This document shows positions 21,343 to 35,378 of a stretch of 64,000 nt of DNA, in pieces. Within the stretch, counting starts at the first letter, position 1. The number at the start of each line of letters is the position of its first letter. The notes beneath the pieces were generated by a model, which did not search any database, was not told the DNA's origin, and saw only the letters and a list, made by a program, of their open reading frames with translations. The translations under genes were made by a program, and so were the position numbers. This DNA is from Corallococcus sp. NCRR (GTDB lineage: Bacteria > Myxococcota > Myxococcia > Myxococcales > Myxococcaceae): NCBI RefSeq assembly GCF_026965535.1, contig NZ_CP114039.1, positions 6,634,001 to 6,698,000 of the forward strand. The letters run 5' to 3'.

Positions 21343-23985
21343 ATGGCCACGACACCGCACGATGCCCCGGAGGCGGGCCAGCCCTACCTGCCCACGCCCC
21401 AGCCGGAGGCGCAGGCCTTCGCCTGGGACGACCTGCTGAGCCCCACCCGCCAGGGCCTCCAGGAGCTCTTCTCCTGGCTGGAGGCGGCCTGTGAGACCCG
21501 CGCGCGGGATGAGGCCAACACCGAACACCTCTCCACCAGCCTGCTCGTGTCCGGTTCCAGGGGCTCCGGGAAGACGACCCTCCTGCTCAGCGCCGTGCAG
21601 GCGCTGCGGGACTGGAAGTCCTTCGTGGCCGGGGCGCCCGGTCCGGAGGTGGCCGCGCTGTCTCGGACGCTCGAACGGCTGGAGCGCCGCATCCTCTGGC
21701 TGGAGCCGCTCGACCTGGAGCCCGTCCCGACGCAGGCGAACCTGCTGGCCACGCTGCTGGTCCGCGTGCGGGCCGCGTTGGATCAACCCCGCCGCGCGAA
21801 GGGCACGCGCGGCGAGTCCGCCCGGTGGTCCTCCTCCATCCTGGAAGAGGGCGCGGAGGAGACGTGGGGGAAGCTGGATCACCTCATCCGCGACGCGTCC
21901 TTCATGTGGGAGGACATCCCGTCCACCACCGATGCCCGCGTGCGCGCGGAGCAGCAGATCCGCGCATCGGAGATCTACGCCAACTTCCAGCCGCGCTTCG
22001 CCGACGCCATGGAGGACGTGGCGCGCACGCTGTCCATGCCGCGCTTCGGCGCGTCCGGCGGTGACCAGGTGCTGCTGGTGCTGCCCATCGACAACGTGGA
22101 CCGCAGCATCGAGCACCTATACAACATCGTGAAGCTCACGCGCATGGTGGCCAGCCGCCACCTCTGGTTCGTCCTGGCCGCCGGCCACCAGGAGTTCCAG
22201 CGCTTCATGGAGCGCTCCTTCCAGAAGGAGTTGATCATCTCCGGGCAGGCCGGCATTGGCGCGCGCGGGCAGGAGGAGACGCTCGCCATCGCCCGGCGCC
22301 AGGCGGCCACCACGCTGCGCCGCGCGCTGCCGCCCAGCTACCGCATCGTGCTGGACCTGGTGGAGCCCCACGAGTCCTGGCGCTTCCCCGTGGATGGCCG
22401 GGGTGAGCCGTTGGGCTCGCTGCTGCGGCGCCTGCGGCTCCCGGCCGGCAAGCGGACGGAGTCGCGCGTGCTGGACACCTTCGCGGACCTCTTCGACTTG
22501 CAGGGCCGGCTCGCGCCCGACGTGGCGCGCTGCTACCGCGAAGCCCTCCGCACCGACGACGCGGAGGTCCGCGAAACCGAGGAGCGTCCGGACGGGCCGC
22601 TGCTCCACCACGTGGGGAGGCTCGCGCTCACGCTGCCCGCGCGCACCCTGCAGGACCTGTGGCACGCCGTCCGGCGTGAGGTCCTGTCCTCCACCGCGCC
22701 CACCGCCGGGGCCGCGCCGGAGCAGGGCGAGCCCGTGGTCCGCATCGCGTCGGAGATGCTCCGCAACGCCATCGACGAGAGCGACCTGCCGGCCTGGGCC
22801 AGCGAGCAACTGCACCACCGCATCCTCCGGCAGGACGACCAGGGCCGCGTCTGCCTGGACCTGACGGGCAAGCCCATCCGCCGCTCCAAGCGCACCAGCC
22901 TCCACGGCGTCCTCCAGGCGCCGCCGCGCGATCCCGGTGGAGATGGGATTGGCGCGCACGCCCGGGTGCTGGGCACGGAGGTGCACCTGCGCCGCTTCCA
23001 CGAGGTGGTGCTGATGCTGGAGGACCTGGAGGTGCCCGGCCGCGAAGCGCCACTGCCCGCGAGCGTCGCCGGCTGGTTCATGGTCCTGCATGACGTGCTG
23101 ATGCTCTTCGAGCGGCCCCGAGTGCTGAGCGCGGACGTGACGGCCCTGGAGATGAGCCCGGAGATGGTCGTCACCGTGCACGAGCTCTGGTCGGGCCGCG
23201 CGCGCGGCGAGCCGTTCGTCCAGGCCGCGTTCTGGTGGACGCCGCCCTCGTGGAACACCTTCATCGAGTTCGCCATCCTCACCGCGCAGTGGCGCGCGTT
23301 CCTCGCGCGGCTCCCCAGGGGTTTCCTCACCGCGGGCGACGCGGAGGAGGTCACCCTGCGCGCCCGCTTCATCCAGGCCGCGTGGGTGGAGAACATCTGC
23401 TCCGTGGCCGGGATGGCGCTGGGGCAGTGGAGCTGGGGGGATGAACGCCAGGGCGCCGTGTCCGTGCTGAAGGCTCCACGGCTGGCCTTGGCGCTGGAGC
23501 GCTATGAGCAGCAGGTGCGCGACACGGTGGCGGAGCTCGTCTCGCGGATCCGCGAGCACAGCGCCGGATACGACCGGCTCTGGACGGCTCGGACCTGGCT
23601 GCGCGACACGCTGCCGCTCCAGGTGCTGCCGGAGTTCGCGCTCGCCTTCGATGCGCGGAGCCTGCTGCGCCAGCCGCCCGGCGTCGCCCGCCCGAATGAA
23701 GGCTGGGACACGCTGATGAAGGACTGGCGCACCCAGGCGCCCCGACTGGCAGCCTTCCGGCAGCAGCGGGTGCGCGACGCGGTGAACCGCTCCAGCGCGG
23801 CGGAGTCGCTGCGTCAGGCGCTCGGCGCGGGCGGCGGGCGCGCGTCGGAGACGTACTACGGCTGGCTCGACACACTGGTGGACGCCTGGTTCACGGTCAT
23901 GGACCACGACGGGGATCCGCTGGTGGGGGTGGTGATGGGCGCGCCGCCCCGCATGGCGCCTCCGTCCACGGATGAGCACCCGTGA
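21343..23985 (+). CDS. rdrA: RADAR-type anti-phage ATPase (RdrA-like)
   Basis: Large P-loop NTPase of 880 residues, about the size of known RdrA proteins. Walker A is GSRGSGKTT at residues 71-79. A KAP-like Walker B reads LLVLPIDNVDRS with Asp250 and Asp253, followed by a sensor-like strand HLWFVLAAGHQEFQRF. The C-terminal 500 residues are mostly helical and unrecognised, as in RdrA. The stop overlaps the next start as GTGA, so it is translated together with the deaminase partner. In characterised RADAR systems RdrA assembles into a ring, binds the RdrB shell and is required for defence against phage. The Shine-Dalgarno site is poor, and base composition matches the neighbours, giving no sign of recent transfer. 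Identification rests on the pair; the ATPase alone could belong to other STAND/KAP defence families. Confidence 0.82.
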   Translation: MATTPHDAPEAGQPYLPTPQPEAQAFAWDDLLSPTRQGLQELFSWLEAACETRARDEANTEHLSTSLLVSGSRGSGKTTLLLSAVQALRDWKSFVAGAPGPEVAALSRTLERLERRILWLEPLDLEPVPTQANLLATLLVRVRAALDQPRRAKGTRGESARWSSSILEEGAEETWGKLDHLIRDASFMWEDIPSTTDARVRAEQQIRASEIYANFQPRFADAMEDVARTLSMPRFGASGGDQVLLVLPIDNVDRSIEHLYNIVKLTRMVASRHLWFVLAAGHQEFQRFMERSFQKELIISGQAGIGARGQEETLAIARRQAATTLRRALPPSYRIVLDLVEPHESWRFPVDGRGEPLGSLLRRLRLPAGKRTESRVLDTFADLFDLQGRLAPDVARCYREALRTDDAEVRETEERPDGPLLHHVGRLALTLPARTLQDLWHAVRREVLSSTAPTAGAAPEQGEPVVRIASEMLRNAIDESDLPAWASEQLHHRILRQDDQGRVCLDLTGKPIRRSKRTSLHGVLQAPPRDPGGDGIGAHARVLGTEVHLRRFHEVVLMLEDLEVPGREAPLPASVAGWFMVLHDVLMLFERPRVLSADVTALEMSPEMVVTVHELWSGRARGEPFVQAAFWWTPPSWNTFIEFAILTAQWRAFLARLPRGFLTAGDAEEVTLRARFIQAAWVENICSVAGMALGQWSWGDERQGAVSVLKAPRLALALERYEQQVRDTVAELVSRIREHSAGYDRLWTARTWLRDTLPLQVLPEFALAFDARSLLRQPPGVARPNEGWDTLMKDWRTQAPRLAAFRQQRVRDAVNRSSAAESLRQALGAGGGRASETYYGWLDTLVDAWFTVMDHDGDPLVGVVMGAPPRMAPPSTDEHP

Positions 23986-26768
23986 GCAACGAGGGCGCGC
24001 GCCCCCCTCCGGGAAACCTGGCCCCGCGCCGCGTCCCGGAGGCCTACGTGCGAGCCGAGGTGGCCAGCTTCCCGCTGACGAGCCTCGGGGCCTTCCGTTC
24101 AGCGGTGACGGAGCTGGTTCCGTCGCTGGAAGGCGCCTCCGGCGAGCCCACGCGCGCGCTCTGGCGCGAGTGCGAGAAGAGCCTGTCGGAGCACGCCAGC
24201 GGCTGGTCGTTGGACCGGATCATCGCCGTGCGCGACGCGTTCTGGTTCCCCTCGCGAGGCCACGCCAGCCACCGGCAGGCTCCGCGCACGGGCGTGTCGA
24301 TGTTCCACTACCTGCGGCACCTGGCGGACACGCACCTGGAGCGCAGGCCCGGCGTCACCGTCATCTTCCAGGGCACGGGCGCGGAGGCGGTGGAGGCGCT
24401 GACGCACTACCGCTGGCTCACCTTCGCGATGCCGGAGGACCTGCTGCTGGCGGCCGTGCCGGTGGAGCCGCCTCCCACGCGCGTGGACATCGAACCGCCG
24501 CTGCTGGTGCGCCACCTGCTGGACCGGGGCGTGGCGGAGGTCCACCACCACGTCGGCGCGGGCATGGACTTCCCGCTCCTGTGGGCGTCACTGCTGTCCG
24601 CCGTGGGCGACGCGGGCCTGGATCCTCGCGCCCTGACGGGGCCCGGCCTGCCCTTCGACGAAGGGGAGCTGATGCTGCGCTGGCTGCTGGCGGCGGCGGT
24701 GACCCGCTGTGTGCTCGCGGAGGTCCTGCTGCGCCGCGAGACGCCTCCGCTCCTGGACTTCGTGCGCGGCCTCTCCGAATCCCAGGCGTGGCTGCCGCAG
24801 CGGCGGCGCGTCCTCTCCCGCACGCTGGAGGCGCTCTCGCGGGGCCGGCGGGAGGTCCTCCCGGCGCTGGATGAGCTGCGCGGCCTGTACGAAGACCTCC
24901 ACCCGCTGGCGGTCCGCAACGTGACCGACCCGCCCGCCACGCTCGATGAGGTGTGGCGGCGGTGTGATCCGGTCGCCTTGCGGCTGCGCCTGAGCAGCCC
25001 CAACGGAGGGGAGCGCTGGCTGGTGCGCGCGGGCCTGAACCACCTGGGGCGCATGGAGCGCGCGGGCCTCCATGACGTGCACTTCGACCGGCTCTTCTGG
25101 CAGGTCCAGCGCGTGCGGTGCCTCAGCTACCGCGCCTACGTGCAGCGGCCGCTGACCGCGGGCCTCCAGTGGTTCATCCGCTTCTATGGCCGCCCGGGCG
25201 CGATGAAGCGCCCCCTGCGCGCCGTGCGCGCGGAGGTGTCCTACGCCGTGGCGGGCGGCGACCAGCCCATCGCCGCGCTGGAGGTCCGCACGAGCCTCGC
25301 GAACGACCCCATCCTCATCGCGGAGGAGCTGGCCTCCCTCACGCGCTCGTGGCGGGGCGTGCTGGGCCGCACGGGTGAGCGCGCTGTCGGAGGGCGCCCG
25401 CCGGAGTTCGGCGTGGTGATGCACCTCATCAAGTCCCGGGACCCCGGCCGGCACTGGACGCAGGGGCAGCCGCCCGCGCACGGCGTGGGGACGTACGCGG
25501 AGCCAGTGCCCGAGGGACGCGTGCGGCTGGGCGGACGGTTCTCCGACTACTTCGCCGCGCAGTCGGTGCAGGCGGAGGCGCTGGTGGACCTGCTGAAGGC
25601 GGTGCCGCTGTCGCTCTGGCTGGTGCGGGGCCTGGACGTGGCGTCGGACGAATTGAGCGTGCCCACGTGGGTGCTGGCGCCGCTGTACCGCTACGTGCGG
25701 TGGGGCGCCGCGCGCGCCGCGACGAGGCGTGAGGCCCGGGGCGCGCCGCCGCTCCGGCTGACGTCGCACGTGGGAGAGGACTACCGGCACCTCATGGAGG
25801 GCCTGCGCCGCATCTATGAGAGCCTGCACTACCTGCTGGACCGCACGGGAGGACGGCTGGGCCACGCCACCGCGCTGGGCGTGGAGCCCGGGATGTGGGC
25901 CGAGTCCGTGGGCGCGGTGATGATGCCGGCCGAGGACCGGCTGTGGGACCTGGTCTTCGAGTGGCGTCTCTACGGCGACTACCGGCTGCCACCGGCGCTC
26001 GCCGCGCAGGCACCTCCCGGACGCCCGCAGCGCGTGGAGAACATGCTGCGCGAGCTGTCCGAGTCCGTCTTCGGAGACTGCGTCGCGCCGCACGTGCTGG
26101 CCGAAGCGCACCACGTGCTGCATACGCTTTGGAGCCCGCCGCTGGCGCGGGAGGAGGGCGGCGTGGGCCTGGATGCCTTCAGCCGCGCCTTCCGCCGGCT
26201 GGACTGGACCCGGGTGCTCAACGCGGAGCAGGTCCGCAGCCTCCTCATCGCCTACCGGGAGGACGAGCGCGTCTTCCAGCGCGGGCAGCAGTTGGTGGAC
26301 ATCCCGCTGGATGCGTCGGAGGTGGAGGCGCTCCGGGCGGCGCAGGACGCGATGCGCCGGCACGTGGGCGCGCGGGGGACCGTCGTGGAGGTGAACCCGT
26401 CCAGCAACCTGCTCATCGGCAACCTGATGGACCTGCGCAACCACCCCATCCTTCGCCTCAATCCCCCGCGCGCCGATGACAGCGCGCCCCCGCCGGTGCC
26501 CATCGCGTTGGGCGCGGACGACCCCGTCACGTTCTCCACCTTCCTCCTGCGCGAATACTCGCTCCTGCACGAGGCGGCGCGCAGCGCGGGTTACTCCGAG
26601 CGGGTGGTGCACGAGTGGCTGTCCACCATCCGCCAGACCAGCATGGACGCGCGCTTCACCGCGCCCTGGCGCCCCAATGCGCTGCACATGGCGGACGAGC
26701 TGCTTGCCGCGCTGGCCCGCTTCGCCCGGAGGGCCATGCCCCGCCACGAAGCCCCCGCGCCCGCTTGA
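23982..26768 (+). CDS. rdrB: RADAR-type adenosine deaminase (RdrB-like)
   Basis: Divergent adenosine deaminase of 928 residues, far longer than housekeeping ADA (about 350) but matching RdrB. All amidohydrolase metal and catalytic motifs appear in order: VHHHVGAG (His188-His190, HxH metal site), SHVGEDY (His596 metal ligand, Glu599 proton shuttle), RLGHATALG (His628), EVNPSSNLLIGN (Asn805-Asn809, substrate loop) and GADDPVTFSTFLLREY (Asp846 metal ligand, Asp847). Several hundred residues between the first and second motifs form the insertion typical of RdrB, which builds a dodecameric shell. Known RdrB converts adenosine, ATP or dATP to inosine forms on infection. GTG 23982 overlaps the rdrA stop by 4 bases. 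Intact motifs imply an active enzyme. Confidence 0.85.
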   Translation: MSNEGARPPPGNLAPRRVPEAYVRAEVASFPLTSLGAFRSAVTELVPSLEGASGEPTRALWRECEKSLSEHASGWSLDRIIAVRDAFWFPSRGHASHRQAPRTGVSMFHYLRHLADTHLERRPGVTVIFQGTGAEAVEALTHYRWLTFAMPEDLLLAAVPVEPPPTRVDIEPPLLVRHLLDRGVAEVHHHVGAGMDFPLLWASLLSAVGDAGLDPRALTGPGLPFDEGELMLRWLLAAAVTRCVLAEVLLRRETPPLLDFVRGLSESQAWLPQRRRVLSRTLEALSRGRREVLPALDELRGLYEDLHPLAVRNVTDPPATLDEVWRRCDPVALRLRLSSPNGGERWLVRAGLNHLGRMERAGLHDVHFDRLFWQVQRVRCLSYRAYVQRPLTAGLQWFIRFYGRPGAMKRPLRAVRAEVSYAVAGGDQPIAALEVRTSLANDPILIAEELASLTRSWRGVLGRTGERAVGGRPPEFGVVMHLIKSRDPGRHWTQGQPPAHGVGTYAEPVPEGRVRLGGRFSDYFAAQSVQAEALVDLLKAVPLSLWLVRGLDVASDELSVPTWVLAPLYRYVRWGAARAATRREARGAPPLRLTSHVGEDYRHLMEGLRRIYESLHYLLDRTGGRLGHATALGVEPGMWAESVGAVMMPAEDRLWDLVFEWRLYGDYRLPPALAAQAPPGRPQRVENMLRELSESVFGDCVAPHVLAEAHHVLHTLWSPPLAREEGGVGLDAFSRAFRRLDWTRVLNAEQVRSLLIAYREDERVFQRGQQLVDIPLDASEVEALRAAQDAMRRHVGARGTVVEVNPSSNLLIGNLMDLRNHPILRLNPPRADDSAPPPVPIALGADDPVTFSTFLLREYSLLHEAARSAGYSERVVHEWLSTIRQTSMDARFTAPWRPNALHMADELLAALARFARRAMPRHEAPAPA

Positions 26769-26772
26769 GGCC

Positions 26773-27969
26773 TCACCGCGCGGCCGGCGCCGGCGCGCGT
26801 GGCGGAGGCGTGCCCGCGGGGCTGGACGGAGGCAGCACCTTCTCCGACTGGCCGAGGAGCCGGCCCAGCACCTTGTCCATGATGGAACCCAGGAGCTTGT
26901 CGGCGGACCAGCCCGCGACGACCGACAGCGCCATCAGCGTGAAGAACACGGCCTGGTTGTCACTCACGACGATGTGGAGGAGCGCAGGGCTGGGATCCAC
27001 GCCGGTGCTTCCCGCCCGCGTGTCCACCGACAGGAGCATGCGGGACTGCTCCAGGAACAGGAGCATCAGCGCCGCGAACGCGCCGATGACGGGCTTCACC
27101 ATCAGGTGGTAGGCGAAGAAGCGGCCCGTCGCTCCCGTGGCGACGAGGAAGCGCTCCTTCGACAGCATGTTGGAGATGATGGCCCCGGAGGCCCCCGCGA
27201 AGCCCACCAGCAGCAGGCCCCGGGGAATCAGCTCCCCCGGCCAGGTCTGGAGCAGCTCGCGCGAGAGCAGCAGGAAGGAGATGCCGAAGACCGCCAGCAA
27301 CAGCAGCGTGCTGAAGATCTGCAGCGAGACATTGATGGAGAGCTGCCAGAACGTCTTGTCCACCTGCTGGTTGACGGTGTCGAGCGCCCCGCGAAGCACG
27401 CTGCGGCAATACCGGCCCTGCTCGGTGCTGAGCGGCGGGGGATCGTCCACGTGGGTGAGCCCGCGCACGCACCGGGGCAGGGGACCGCTCGTCCTGTCCG
27501 CGCCGAGCCAGAGCTGGGCGCGCGCGGAGTCCGTCACCCGGCGCTCGAACTGCTGTTGGATCTCCAGCGCCCGGGGCACCAGCATGGACGCGGGCATCAC
27601 CAGGAGCAGCAGCCCGTCCACCTCGTGGATGAGCTCCCAGTAGGAGAAGGACCAGCGCCCCGAGGGCTTGTCCAGGCACCAGCAGGCGGCGTCCAGCTTC
27701 TCCTGACATTGCTTCAGGACGGTCTCGTCCTCGTCGGTGAGGTCCTTGCGGATCCGGCACAGCTCCAGGAGCGAGGTGTTGCTCTCCACCCTGTTCCAGA
27801 GCAACTGGGTGGCCGAGCCAAACCCCCGCCGCCTCCGCCGGAAGCCCACGCGCTTCAGCAGCTCCGGCAACGGAGGATCTGGAAGCGTGTCGATGGCCGC
27901 CATGAAGCACACATGGCCACGGCGCGAGCAGGTGACAACCCGCCGCGCCGCGCAGTGCGTCAATGTCAT
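26773..27969 (-). CDS. Four-helix membrane protein of unknown function, convergent with rdrB
   Basis: Protein of up to 398 residues (376 if it starts at ATG 27903; neither start has a clear ribosome site). The N-terminal 200 residues are soluble, with a basic patch RRRRRGFG and several Cys. Four hydrophobic segments follow at about 214-236, 250-268, 288-306 and 338-353. Between them lie the Gly-rich VGFAGASGAIISNML and the terminal LMALSVVAGWSADKLLG, a pattern seen in uncharacterised bacterial membrane proteins. The C-terminal tail is Pro/Ala-rich. Its stop lies 4 bases from the rdrB stop on the opposite strand. Some RADAR loci carry a small membrane accessory (SLATT or Csx27-like), but those are shorter and co-directional, so a defence link is only a possibility. 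Confidence 0.65.
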   Translation of the reverse strand: MTLTHCAARRVVTCSRRGHVCFMAAIDTLPDPPLPELLKRVGFRRRRRGFGSATQLLWNRVESNTSLLELCRIRKDLTDEDETVLKQCQEKLDAACWCLDKPSGRWSFSYWELIHEVDGLLLLVMPASMLVPRALEIQQQFERRVTDSARAQLWLGADRTSGPLPRCVRGLTHVDDPPPLSTEQGRYCRSVLRGALDTVNQQVDKTFWQLSINVSLQIFSTLLLLAVFGISFLLLSRELLQTWPGELIPRGLLLVGFAGASGAIISNMLSKERFLVATGATGRFFAYHLMVKPVIGAFAALMLLFLEQSRMLLSVDTRAGSTGVDPSPALLHIVVSDNQAVFFTLMALSVVAGWSADKLLGSIMDKVLGRLLGQSEKVLPPSSPAGTPPPRAPAPAAR

Positions 27970-31472: not shown

Positions 31473-34043
31473 TCAGCGCTCCAGCGTGAACTTGGCGGCG
31501 ATGAGCCGACCGGGGCGCTGGACCCCGTAGAAGTCGTAGGTCTGGGCGTTGGTGATGTTCTGGAAGTCCAGCGTCCAGCTCAGCCGCGTCGTCATGTCGC
31601 GGATGACGTAGGTGAGCGCCAGCCCGTGCGTGAGCTGTGAATCGATGCCCAGCTTCTCGTCGTTGCCCAGCGCCTCCCAGGAGAGGAGGAAGCCGTCCAA
31701 GTAGCGCGTGCGCCACGTGACGAGCAGCTCGTCCTGGAACTTGAGCAGGCCGGTCACCCGGGCCTGCGCGCTGCCGTTGGCGGTCAGGTAGGGACGGTTG
31801 GGGATGCGCTGGTCGTTGAACTCGGCGTAGTTGCCCTCGCCGGATGTGTTGCGCAGGTCCTGATACGTGGCGTTGCCATCCAGGCTCAGGTAGCGGCCCG
31901 GCGACGTCCACCCCACGGAGCCCATTCCGCCCAGCGAGCGGGAGCCATGGACGTTCTGGTACGTGAACGAGCTGCCCTGGCCAATCAGGATGATGAGCTG
32001 ATCCGTCAGCCGGGCGAAGCCGCCCACGTTGGCGCGGAAGCTGCCGGCGCGGCCGGGCTCGGACGCGTAGCCCAGCCCCAGGTTGAAGTTGTGGCTGGTC
32101 TCCGGCTGGAGCGTCAGGTTCGCGTCGATGAGGTTCCCGTCACCGAAGAGCTCATCCGGGCGTGGCAGCCGCGTGGCCCACTCGTACGAGGCCTTGGCGC
32201 TGAGCTCGGGGGTGATGCGGAAGCGCAGGCCGTCCCCCACGCCCAGCTCGTGCGCGGTGCGGCCCTGGTCCAGGAACTCCGCGCTGGCCAGCAGCTTCCG
32301 TGCCCGCACGTCCTGGAGGTAGTCCTTCACGAAGGCGATGTTCTGCAGCCGCCCGTCCATGGCATCGAACTGGTACTCCAGGCCCGTCACCAGCGACGTC
32401 ACGCCTCGGGGCGCGGAGAGCGGATCCGGCTGGTTGTTCGCCTGGAGCCGGCGGTCCTCGCCCGTCCGCGCCACGAACGTGGGCGACACCGCGAGCCGCA
32501 GCGTGTGCGGGCCGCCGGGCACGGGCGTCCAGGCGGCGTTGAGCCGCGCGAACGCGGTGTGCTGGTTGACGTAGCGCTCCGTGCCGCCTTCGGTGATCTC
32601 CCCGGGCTGGGGCAGGGTGAGGAAGCAGCGGCCATACCAGTCGTAGGCGCACGAGCCGATGTCGAGGAACCGGTTGCGGCGGAACGTGTACCCGCCCACC
32701 GCGTCCACGCTCACGCCCGGGTCGTAGGTCTGCGCGTAGCGCAGCGTGGCGCCCGCGGAGCCGTCGGCGGTGGTCACCTCGCCGTAGGCGGACTCCATGT
32801 TGACGTCGTTCTGGATGTCGCGGCCGGCGGCGTTGAAGAAGCCGCGCACCAGCAGCCGCCGCGCCCAGGGCTTGTCCACGAAGCCCGCCTCGACGCTAGC
32901 CCCGCCCGCGCGGTAGCCGTCGTGGAAGCGCCGCACCTCCACGGGCACGGGCTTGCCCAGGTCGTTGGGCACCTCCACGTTGACGGGGTAGTCGTTGCGC
33001 GCGTCGTCGTAGAAGCCGTGCGCGCGCACCATCAGGCCGGTGGAGTCCTGGTAGTGGCGCCCGCTCGCGGTGAAGCGGTGGGTGTTGAAGGAGGCCAGCT
33101 CGTAGGAGCCCGCCACGGCCGAGCCGCGCACGTCCTGGTCCGTGACGAGCTCCACCGCGCCGCCAAGCACGTCCGCGCCGAAGCGGATGGGCACCACGCC
33201 CGTGTAGACCTCCATCTGCTGCACCAGGTTCACGGGCACGTTCGCCAGGCCCGGGCCGTAGCCCGCGAACTCCAGCGGCACGCCGTCGATGAAGAAGCGC
33301 ACCTGATCATCCGACAGGCCCGCGATGGAGATGCGCGCGCCGCTGCCCAGGCCGCCCGTGCGGCGCACGTCCACGCCCTCCGTGCGCGCCAGCGCGGTGC
33401 CCAGGTCGGCGGACTCCATGCGGGCCTGCTCCAGCTCGATGACCTGCACGGCCTCCGCGGACTTGCGGCGGCGCTCGGCGCGCGTCTCGCCCACGGAGGT
33501 GACCTCGACGTCCTCCTCGTACTCGGTCGGGGCCTCGTCGTCCTGGGAGGCCGGGGCCTTCGGGCCGCTGGACAGCGCGGGCGGGGGCGTGGCGGCCACG
33601 GCCTTGGAGCGGCCGGGCAACTGGAAGACATACGTGTACGTGACGCGCGCGGGGGCCAGGACGCCGTTGCGCTTCGCGGGCATGAAGCGGAACTGGAGCG
33701 CGGCGGTGCGCGCGGCTTCATCGAAGCCGTGGCCCACGGGCTCCATCACCTCCGCCTCCGTCACCACGCCCTGCGTGTCCACGCGCAGGCGCAGACGGAC
33801 GTTCGCCTCCAACCGCGCGCGCTCCGCCTCCTCGGGGTAGGGCGCTTCCACGGCGTGGATCAGCTTCGGCAGCTCGATGACGGGCTCCGCCGGAGCGGCC
33901 TCGGGTGTGGCCGCCGGAGCCTCCGCCTGGGTCGTTCCCGCGTGCGCCAGGCCCCCGAAGCAGATGGAAGACAGCAGGGCCACGCCCACCTGGGACCGCC
34001 ACCTGCGCTTCGCCTGGGTCGTGATTATGAAAATGGTTATCAT
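31473..34043 (-). CDS. mxcH: TonB-dependent siderophore receptor with N-terminal TonB-like domain
   Basis: Outer-membrane receptor of 856 residues from ATG 34043. A signal peptide (about 1-35) is followed by a TonB C-terminal-type domain (about 48-145: LPKLIHAVEAPYPEEAERAR, EAARTAALQFRFMPAKRNG), a linker, a plug domain (about 190-310: TALARTEGVDVRRTGGLG, VRFFIDGVPLEFAGYG, VLGGAVELVTD) and a beta-barrel ending in a C-terminal aromatic-rich strand (GRLIAAKFTLER). It should import ferric myxochelin. No Shine-Dalgarno precedes the ATG, and a Fur-box-like sequence overlaps it, so the true start is uncertain. It lies 58 bases after the DAHP synthase gene and before the lipoprotein. Symbol taken from the Stigmatella myxochelin cluster. 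Confidence 0.87.
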   Translation of the reverse strand: MITIFIITTQAKRRWRSQVGVALLSSICFGGLAHAGTTQAEAPAATPEAAPAEPVIELPKLIHAVEAPYPEEAERARLEANVRLRLRVDTQGVVTEAEVMEPVGHGFDEAARTAALQFRFMPAKRNGVLAPARVTYTYVFQLPGRSKAVAATPPPALSSGPKAPASQDDEAPTEYEEDVEVTSVGETRAERRRKSAEAVQVIELEQARMESADLGTALARTEGVDVRRTGGLGSGARISIAGLSDDQVRFFIDGVPLEFAGYGPGLANVPVNLVQQMEVYTGVVPIRFGADVLGGAVELVTDQDVRGSAVAGSYELASFNTHRFTASGRHYQDSTGLMVRAHGFYDDARNDYPVNVEVPNDLGKPVPVEVRRFHDGYRAGGASVEAGFVDKPWARRLLVRGFFNAAGRDIQNDVNMESAYGEVTTADGSAGATLRYAQTYDPGVSVDAVGGYTFRRNRFLDIGSCAYDWYGRCFLTLPQPGEITEGGTERYVNQHTAFARLNAAWTPVPGGPHTLRLAVSPTFVARTGEDRRLQANNQPDPLSAPRGVTSLVTGLEYQFDAMDGRLQNIAFVKDYLQDVRARKLLASAEFLDQGRTAHELGVGDGLRFRITPELSAKASYEWATRLPRPDELFGDGNLIDANLTLQPETSHNFNLGLGYASEPGRAGSFRANVGGFARLTDQLIILIGQGSSFTYQNVHGSRSLGGMGSVGWTSPGRYLSLDGNATYQDLRNTSGEGNYAEFNDQRIPNRPYLTANGSAQARVTGLLKFQDELLVTWRTRYLDGFLLSWEALGNDEKLGIDSQLTHGLALTYVIRDMTTRLSWTLDFQNITNAQTYDFYGVQRPGRLIAAKFTLER

Positions 34044-34047
34044 TTTC
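34029..34047. promoter_or_regulatory. Fur-box-like operator overlapping the mxcH start codon
   Basis: GAAAATGGTTATCATTTTC matches 15 of 19 positions of the classical Fur box GATAATGATAATCATTATC and is nearly palindromic. The predicted mxcH ATG (34043-34041) lies inside it. This implies iron repression of the receptor apart from the long biosynthetic operon, or Fur binding that blocks initiation directly. Confidence 0.75.
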
Positions 34048-34101
34048 AACGGCGCGACGTTTAGCCGCACGTACTCCGGACTGTCAAGGCTCCATGGCAA
34101 G

Positions 34102-35378
34102 TCAGGCAGCGCGGTCCTGAGGGGTGCGCACCGTGGTGTGGAGGCCGTCCGCGACGCGGAACGCGAGCTGGAGGGATTGGTCTGCGTTGAGGCGCGGATC
34201 ACAGTGCGTGTGGTAGCGGTCGGAGAGGTCGTCCTCGGACACGTCCAGCGGGCCGCCCAGGCACTCGGTGACGTCCTGACCGGTCATCTCCAGGTGGAGG
34301 CCACCGGGGTGCACGCCCTCGGCGGCGGCGACCTGGAGGAAGCCCATCACCTCCGCGAGGATCCGCTCCAGCGAGCGCGTCTTGTAGCCGTTGCTGGCCT
34401 TGTGCGTGTTGCCGTGCATCGGGTCGATGGACCACACCACGGGGCTGCCGTGGCGCCGGGTGGCGGCCATCAGCCGGGGCAGGCGCGCGGCGACCTGATC
34501 CGAACCGAAGCGCCCGATGAGCGTGAGCTTTCCGGGGAGGCCCTGGGGGTTGAGCGTGTCGATGAGGCGGACCAGGTCGTCCGGCTCCATCGTGGGACCG
34601 CACTTGAGCCCGATGGGGTTCTGGATGCCGCGCATGAACTCCACGTGGCCGCCGTCCAGTTGGCGGGTGCGCTCGCCAATCCAGAGCATGTGCGCGGACG
34701 TGTCGTACCAGCCGCCCGTCGCCTCATCGACGCGGGTCATGGCCTGTTCGACGTTGAGGAGCAGGGCCTCGTGGCTGGTGAAGAAGTCCACCGGGCGCAC
34801 GGCGCCTTCGGACTCCGGCCGGTGGCCCAGGAGGCGGGTCAGGTCCGTGTAGCCCTCGCGCGCGAAGGCCCGCACCAGTTGCAGCGTCTCCGCGGACTGG
34901 TGGTACGCGCGCAGCAGGCGCTGGGGATCCGGTGTGCGCTCGCGCGCGTCGAAGTCCATGCCGTTGATGATGTCGCCGCGGTAGCTGGGCAGGGTGACGC
35001 CGTTGACGGTCTCCGTGGCGTTGGAGCGCGGCTTGGCGAACTGGCCGGCGATGCGGCCCACCTTCACCACCGGGCAGCCACCCGCGAACGTGAGCACGCC
35101 CGCCATCTGGAGCAGCAACTGGAAGGTGTCGCGCACGTTCCGCGCGGAGAACTCCTTGAAGCTCTCCGCGCAGTCGCCGCCCTGGAGCAGGAAGGCTTTG
35201 CCCTCGGCCACCTGTCCCAGGGCTTCGCGCAGACGGCGGGTCTCCTCGGCGTGCACGAGCGGCGGCAGGCGCGCCAACTCCGCCTCCACGCGCGCCAGGG
35301 CGGACGGGTCCGGGTAGTCGTCGGGGATGTAGCGGACCGGTTTCGCCCGCCAGGAGGAGGGGGACCAGGAGGAGTTCG

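Follow-up and report, generated by a model that had tools for sequence, protein, structure and literature searches.

RADAR systems, which act against phages by destroying ATP and are known from the rdrAB pairs of E. coli (P0304799.3), C. rodentium and S. suis and from a series of structures (8fnt/8fnu/8fnv/8fnw, 8hr7-8hrc), combine an ATPase, RdrA, with a deaminase, RdrB. In the available text of PMC9994260, E. coli RdrB turns ATP into ITP, with H152, H154, H498 and H530 as zinc ligands and E501 as catalytic acid; this activity is abolished by H152/154A or E501A. E. coli RdrA is described there as an active ATPase, and cells with the K82A (Walker A) change make no ITP. Subtypes that add a membrane protein beside rdrAB, rdrABC (Csx27) and rdrABCD (SLATT), are published as well (as described in the accessible parts of PMC7699616 and PMC11676413). 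Antiviral conversion of ATP to ITP is also ascribed, in the accessible part of PMC11645235, to Cad1, a CRISPR-associated adenosine deaminase which, unlike the proteins considered here, is CARF-fused, belongs to type III CRISPR and has no RdrA. We analysed a window of 64,000 nucleotides from Corallococcus sp. NCRR (contig NZ_CP114039.1, positions 6,634,001 to 6,698,000, that is, 6.634-6.698 Mb within a 9.79-Mb single-contig genome), and find that it probably holds a chromosomal three-gene anti-phage locus of a divergent RADAR type, composed of rdrA, rdrB and a membrane-protein gene.

The rdrA-like open reading frame (ORF; 21343-23985, plus strand, ATG start) encodes 880 residues and the rdrB-like ORF (23982-26768, same strand, GTG start) 928 residues, the two being joined by a 4-base GTGA overlap, as a first-pass annotation of this DNA had described them. 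Gene order and sizes are like those of known rdrAB, and an annotated rdrAB of Aliivibrio has the same order with a short overlap (1 base there, 4 here). The base composition was said to equal that of the neighbours, and indeed the GC content at third codon positions is 0.94 for both genes, compared with 0.88-0.95 for four neighbouring genes. Against the NCBIfam models, both proteins fall far under the curated equivalog cutoffs: RdrB scores 160 bits (NF041744, cutoff 800; 127 bits with the PADLOC RdrB model), and RdrA hardly registers, at 22 bits (NF041743, cutoff 600).

The 928-residue protein is, judging firmly from its sequence, an RdrB homologue with its zinc and catalytic residues intact. 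It matches E. coli RdrB (8fnw) with an E value of 1e-28 by sequence and of 8e-46 over 368-892 by profile, and hhalign aligned a 20-row RdrB profile with a profile of six plasmid RdrBs over columns 97-892 of 938 (probability 100%, E 1.2e-68). These six come from plasmids of Pseudomonadota, Fusobacteriota and Bacteroidota, and only one of them is annotated as rdrB in its record. Ordinary deaminases rank behind 8fnw in a PDB profile search, at 1e-6 at best. Residues H188, H190, H596, G598, E599, R625, G627, H628, N805-N809 and D846-P848 are invariant in the 20 rows, and H189, V597 and L626 vary. The predicted zinc ligands H188 and H190 (24543-24551) align with the canonical HxH and are the counterparts of E. 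coli H152 and H154; in the HVGE motif (25767-25778), H596 corresponds to H498 and the putative catalytic E599 to E501, and H628 (25863-25865) corresponds to H530. The NPSSN (residues 805-809, 26394-26408) and DDP (residues 846-848, 26517-26525) motifs complete the set, all of which lies, on the plus strand, at the residues first named.

The identification of the 880-residue protein as RdrA is supported, and rests on its fold more than on its sequence. When its predicted structure, a model with a predicted local distance difference test (pLDDT) score of 46, was submitted to Foldseek, all 18 matches at E<=1e-3 were RdrA-length chains from structures of RdrA alone or of RdrA with RdrB, and the next match stood at 0.03. 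With VIA-align, RdrA entries occupied ranks 1-7, from Z 20.8 (root-mean-square deviation 5.0, 315 aligned) to Z 17.8 (4.2, 250 aligned) for the seventh, the next family being BREX BrxC at Z 13.5. In these structural alignments, the protein is 11-17% identical to the RdrAs of known RADAR. By hhalign, the protein aligned with six other RdrAs, all from plasmids, in the ATPase domain only (96%, E 2.9e-9). Together with the profile-profile match of RdrB, these RdrA-only strong fold matches support the RdrA-RdrB reading, the likeness to known systems comprising the catalytic residues and near full-length homology of RdrB and the ATPase fold of RdrA.

Within the pair, the ATPase site of RdrA differs from that of known RADAR. 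The P-loop is intact: Walker A (residues 71-78, GSRGSGKT; 21553-21576, plus strand) is like that of E. coli (GKT), and all 15 rows share G74, G76, K77 and T78. In Walker B (D-N-V-D, residues 250-253; 22090-22101), an Asn stands in place of the second acid; the first-pass annotation had named D250 and D253, both invariant, and had made no mention of N251. At the sensor-1 place (G281-H282; 22183-22188), there is no counterpart of the Asp of E. coli RdrA (D253 in the available text of PMC9994260). Because Walker B reads DN and the sensor-1 Asp is missing, we name the locus a RADAR variant, and not a typical member.

The altered site characterizes a whole clade. The RdrB tree comprises 23 type-A rows, 8 further rows from myxobacteria and 6 from plasmids, 37 in all (several of the plasmid rows being very long-branched and their order unsure), and takes in 31 of the 37 near-complete RdrB places found, leaving out two of G029, two of G139, one of G118 and one of G120. 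The window falls inside the 23-row type-A clade (support 100/100), the sister of which is G006 (99/95); seven type-B rows (G022, G042, G103, G125, G128, G135 and G140) are separate (100/99). Type-B RADAR comes from the same phylum, with an RdrB 32-33% identical to that of the window (G022 and G042 aligned), and differs from it in this separate position and in having DD at Walker B in all seven cases. The RdrA alignment comprised 22 type-A rows, 7 type-B rows and 6 rows from plasmids; G005, whose rdrA is broken across contigs, was omitted from the type-A rows. Walker B is DN in the 22 type-A RdrAs (IDNVD, or VDNVD in one) and DD in the 13 others; G006, the sister of type A, has DD, plus GD at the sensor-1 place, and among the four RdrAs from viral contigs, three likewise have DD and one (L160) was missed by the pattern. 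In total, DD is present in all 17 RdrAs resolved outside type A, with 7 other loci unread (six Myxococcota RADAR loci and L160). The sensor-1 column has Gly (G281) in 22 of 22 type-A RdrAs, followed by H, R, Q or A, and in the 13 others it has Asp (9), Gln (3, one lineage) or, in Aureibacter, Lys, the alignment being uncertain there. From the spacing to Walker B, the counterpart could be H282 rather than G281; neither is Asp. Every type-A RdrA read has lost both the second Walker-B acid and the sensor-1 Asp. The type-A clade, in which the P-loop and the deaminase are kept and these two residues are gone, constitutes a natural separation-of-function experiment.

The question arises as to how such an ATPase would work. 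In AAA+ proteins, an amide swap at the second Walker-B acid traps the ATP-bound state. By analogy, the Asn found at this position suggests that type-A RdrA probably binds ATP and hydrolyses it poorly, or by another route, and we infer that ATP is here mainly a bound ligand, not fuel. A bolder scheme, which we consider doubtful but worth stating, is that the RdrA ring is a natural 'Walker-B trap': ATP would be bound as a signal or clamp and not hydrolysed as is known for RdrA, the dedicated membrane protein would now control release or gating, and the ATP-destroying machine would be armed at the cell envelope, not by ATPase cycling.

The pair had been called a complete two-gene system, a description that needs slight correction because a gene for a membrane protein accompanies it: this gene (26773-27903, minus strand, 376 residues) is convergent, lies 4 bases past the end of rdrB and belongs with the pair. 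Its start is a conserved ATG at 27903, the longest ORF reaching 27969. A crude hydropathy scan and the spans of its relatives suggest a helical N-terminal part followed by 3-4 membrane spans; the ORF picks used for these spans, and for the survey of type-A neighbourhoods, are compositional guesses, some of them false. Among 16 genomes of the genus, the gene is present in 14, and missing from exactly the two without orthologous rdrAB (G006 and G013). It stays beside rdrAB in convergent, tandem or divergent order, across differing flanks: in G036, which belongs to another family, it follows rdrB in tandem, as it does in G090, where it is broken into pieces on two contigs, one piece immediately behind rdrB; G010 carries a second set, likewise spread over two contigs, with the gene ahead of rdrA in divergent orientation. 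The membrane-gene tree has 25 rows (fragments and copies of G003, G090 and G135 being omitted). An 18-row clade (98/96) contains 15 genes adjoining type-A RADAR, 2 located about 3 kb from type-B RADAR and 1 (G119) elsewhere in a type-A RADAR genome. A second clade groups six genes, none of which was seen next to RADAR (that of G018 sits on a contig of 3 kb), and G102b stands alone on a long branch. This gene is stably linked to rdrAB. The two genes near type-B RADAR, in G140 and G125 (L133 12214-15999, L134 1133-5728), are beside an RNA-repair-like gene, which in G140 encodes 2'-5' RNA ligase, MJ1316 and nucleotidyltransferase domains. NuoF and NuoG were also considered as parts of the unit and rejected: NuoF is the direct neighbour in G000 and G010 alone, and it is present in G013, which has no RADAR.

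The membrane protein looks like a new family occupying the membrane-partner slot of RADAR. No family in Pfam, PADLOC or NCBIfam scored above its cutoff; DUF4257 (best E 0.0014, in 11 of 15 members) and YLATT (best 0.039, in 2 of 15) were below cutoff and were not accepted. Foldseek gave no match at E<=1e-3 from an AlphaFold model with a pLDDT of 57.6, and a profile search of the PDB had no match with E under 0.5. No similarity was detected to the SLATT or VanZ-like proteins encoded at other RADAR loci, nor to the 4-span protein of G120; with one RADAR-linked SLATT, hhalign gave 0.3%. The locus resembles rdrABC and rdrABCD in adding a membrane protein to rdrAB. It differs in that this protein is, in Corallococcus, encoded on the opposite strand, shows no similarity to that RADAR-linked SLATT and has no match above cutoff in the three libraries, the coverage of Csx27 and of every SLATT type by these libraries being unconfirmed. 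As to its role, the chances are about even that it is a tethering sensor or regulator, and somewhat lower, roughly one in three, that it is a second effector, one that would damage the membrane. In either case, it offers a concrete candidate for sensing or localisation.

A membrane partner is a recurring feature of RADAR, given the published Csx27 and SLATT subtypes and the partners found at other loci: a SLATT follows rdrB in Aureibacter, a VanZ-like protein follows it in Cetobacterium, and 4-span proteins occur at some type-A loci. Concerning the latter, G120 and G145 have, beside rdrA, homologous 4-span proteins where the usual membrane gene is missing (L148 9349-9945, minus strand, and L147 3753-4679, minus strand; E 2e-18 and 9e-23); they belong to two genera and lie in differing orientations, and are candidates for a second RADAR membrane partner. 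In G139 (L149 2894-4117), type-A RADAR is flanked by a 251-residue 4-span protein (no Pfam or PADLOC match) and a 152-residue protein (no PADLOC or NCBIfam match), which we take to resemble nucleoside deoxyribosyltransferases.

From these elements, we infer that the locus provides phage defence. The RdrA ring, the membrane protein or both would sense phage infection; the ring would dock on an RdrB shell, infection triggering assembly or activation; RdrB would deaminate ATP and dATP into ITP and dITP, its presumed products; and the loss of ATP and dATP, together with ITP and dITP, would starve and poison phage replication.

RADAR is present in 15 of the 16 genus genomes searched: 14 have orthologous pairs with the membrane gene, and G013 has none. 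In G006 (L063), a divergent RADAR replaces the usual one. Orthologues within the genus are 76-91% identical for RdrB and 62-84% for RdrA, which, with the substitution ratios given below, shows that the two reading frames did not arise by chance; nine of the ten named loci with matches are from Corallococcus (identity up to 91%) and one is from Myxococcus. Across 195 Myxococcota genomes, the membrane family was found in 27, RdrB in 33 (30 of them near-complete) and the RdrA profile in 27, several weakly. The available text of PMC9994260 reports RADAR in 270 of about 38,000 genomes (<1%); methods and sampling differ, so that this and our 30 of 195 do not allow a strict comparison. In a comparison of flanks, the trio stays together. 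In Corallococcus clade 1, it occupies one chromosomal site, with a variable upstream flank and a downstream flank common to 7 of 8 genomes (the contig of the eighth stops there), which fits the earlier suggestion of a long-resident copy; in clade 2 it is found at other sites. A decayed second copy, in which the beginnings of an rdrA and a membrane gene are placed back to back, lies in G004 (G004:C530:67388-68033). The three genes are under purifying selection, RdrA and the membrane protein changing faster: the mean ratio of nonsynonymous to synonymous substitution rates (dN/dS; 15 pairs from six clade-1 genomes) is 0.38 for RdrA, 0.19 for RdrB, 0.43 for the membrane protein and 0.19 for the neighbouring M19 gene. 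Faster evolution of this kind, about twice that of RdrB or M19 here, is often seen in sensors. Mean dS in the same pairs is 0.21-0.27 for the trio versus 0.13 for M19, and the trio may have passed between species. No RdrB match was found in 50,697 phage records; 72,556 plasmid records gave 8 RdrB matches, all distant, and none to the membrane protein, and IMG/VR gave 5 distant RdrB loci and none for the membrane protein.

Several points weigh against a RADAR-type defence locus. Sequence support for RdrA is weak outside the ATPase core: in the C-terminal half, the hhalign alignment is absent and the low-confidence model falls below a pLDDT of 50 over residues 450-672. No RdrA came up when PDB sequences were searched with the RdrA profile. 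The model of the membrane protein is poor as well. As E. coli K82A cells make no ITP, a ring without ATP hydrolysis might be inactive, unless it works in another way. More distant members of the membrane family occur away from RADAR, and 6 of the 23 type-A loci have no membrane gene next door (G029, G103, G119, G120, G139 and G145). Finally, near-universal presence within a genus is unusual for a defence system, and we know of no defence assay for any member.

This near-universal presence leads to a first alternative, in which a RADAR-derived pair was domesticated for housekeeping or development, for example for the ATP/ITP pool or starvation signalling, and no longer acts in phage defence. 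The 14 orthologous pairs with their membrane gene, the purifying selection on RdrB, the single chromosomal site of the clade-1 genomes and the clade-wide alteration of the ATPase motif speak for it. However, the pair is absent from G013 and replaced by a divergent one in G006, clade 2 has it at other sites with varied flanks, a second set exists in G010 and a decayed remnant in G004, and RdrA and the membrane protein evolve faster. Such gain and loss is as in defence genes, a turnover that does not suggest pure housekeeping, and we tend to regard domestication as unlikely. A comparably low probability is given to the membrane gene being a chance neighbour carried along with a plain two-gene RADAR. 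Its opposite strand in the window, its relatives elsewhere and the six type-A loci where it is not adjacent would be explained in this way, but not the fact that it stays next to type-A RADAR in both Corallococcus clades (1 and 2), G036, G090 and the second G010 set while the other neighbours change. That the two proteins are an amidohydrolase/ATPase pair outside RADAR, sharing only deaminase and AAA+ domain similarity, could be argued from the NCBIfam scores and the RdrA-profile PDB search, but is highly improbable, as RdrB matches RdrB over nearly its full length at E 1e-68, versus 1e-6 at best for ordinary deaminases, and the only strong fold matches of RdrA are RdrA.

A three-gene RADAR variant stays our preferred reading, and the RADAR assignment of the first-pass annotation is supported. 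Three points missed there make the finding stronger than was stated: the ATPase site is altered, a membrane partner is present, and RADAR occurs in 15 of the 16 genus genomes searched. Among the literature matches listed, none dealt with RADAR in myxobacteria, with an RdrA altered at Walker B or with the 376-residue partner. RADAR is probably undercounted, since the system described here scores far below the curated NCBIfam cutoffs and would be missed by cutoff-based annotation.

Two further observations concern other genes. Plasmid pRLN3 of Rhizobium leguminosarum (L155 7540-9839) has a RADAR pair recorded as hypothetical and, downstream of it, a gene for adenylosuccinate synthetase, which is possibly linked to inosine metabolism. 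In the window itself, a gene at 31473-34202 (minus strand) encodes a TonB-dependent receptor (plug and barrel) that also bears a TonB C-terminal domain (residues 120-194), to our knowledge an unusual fusion.

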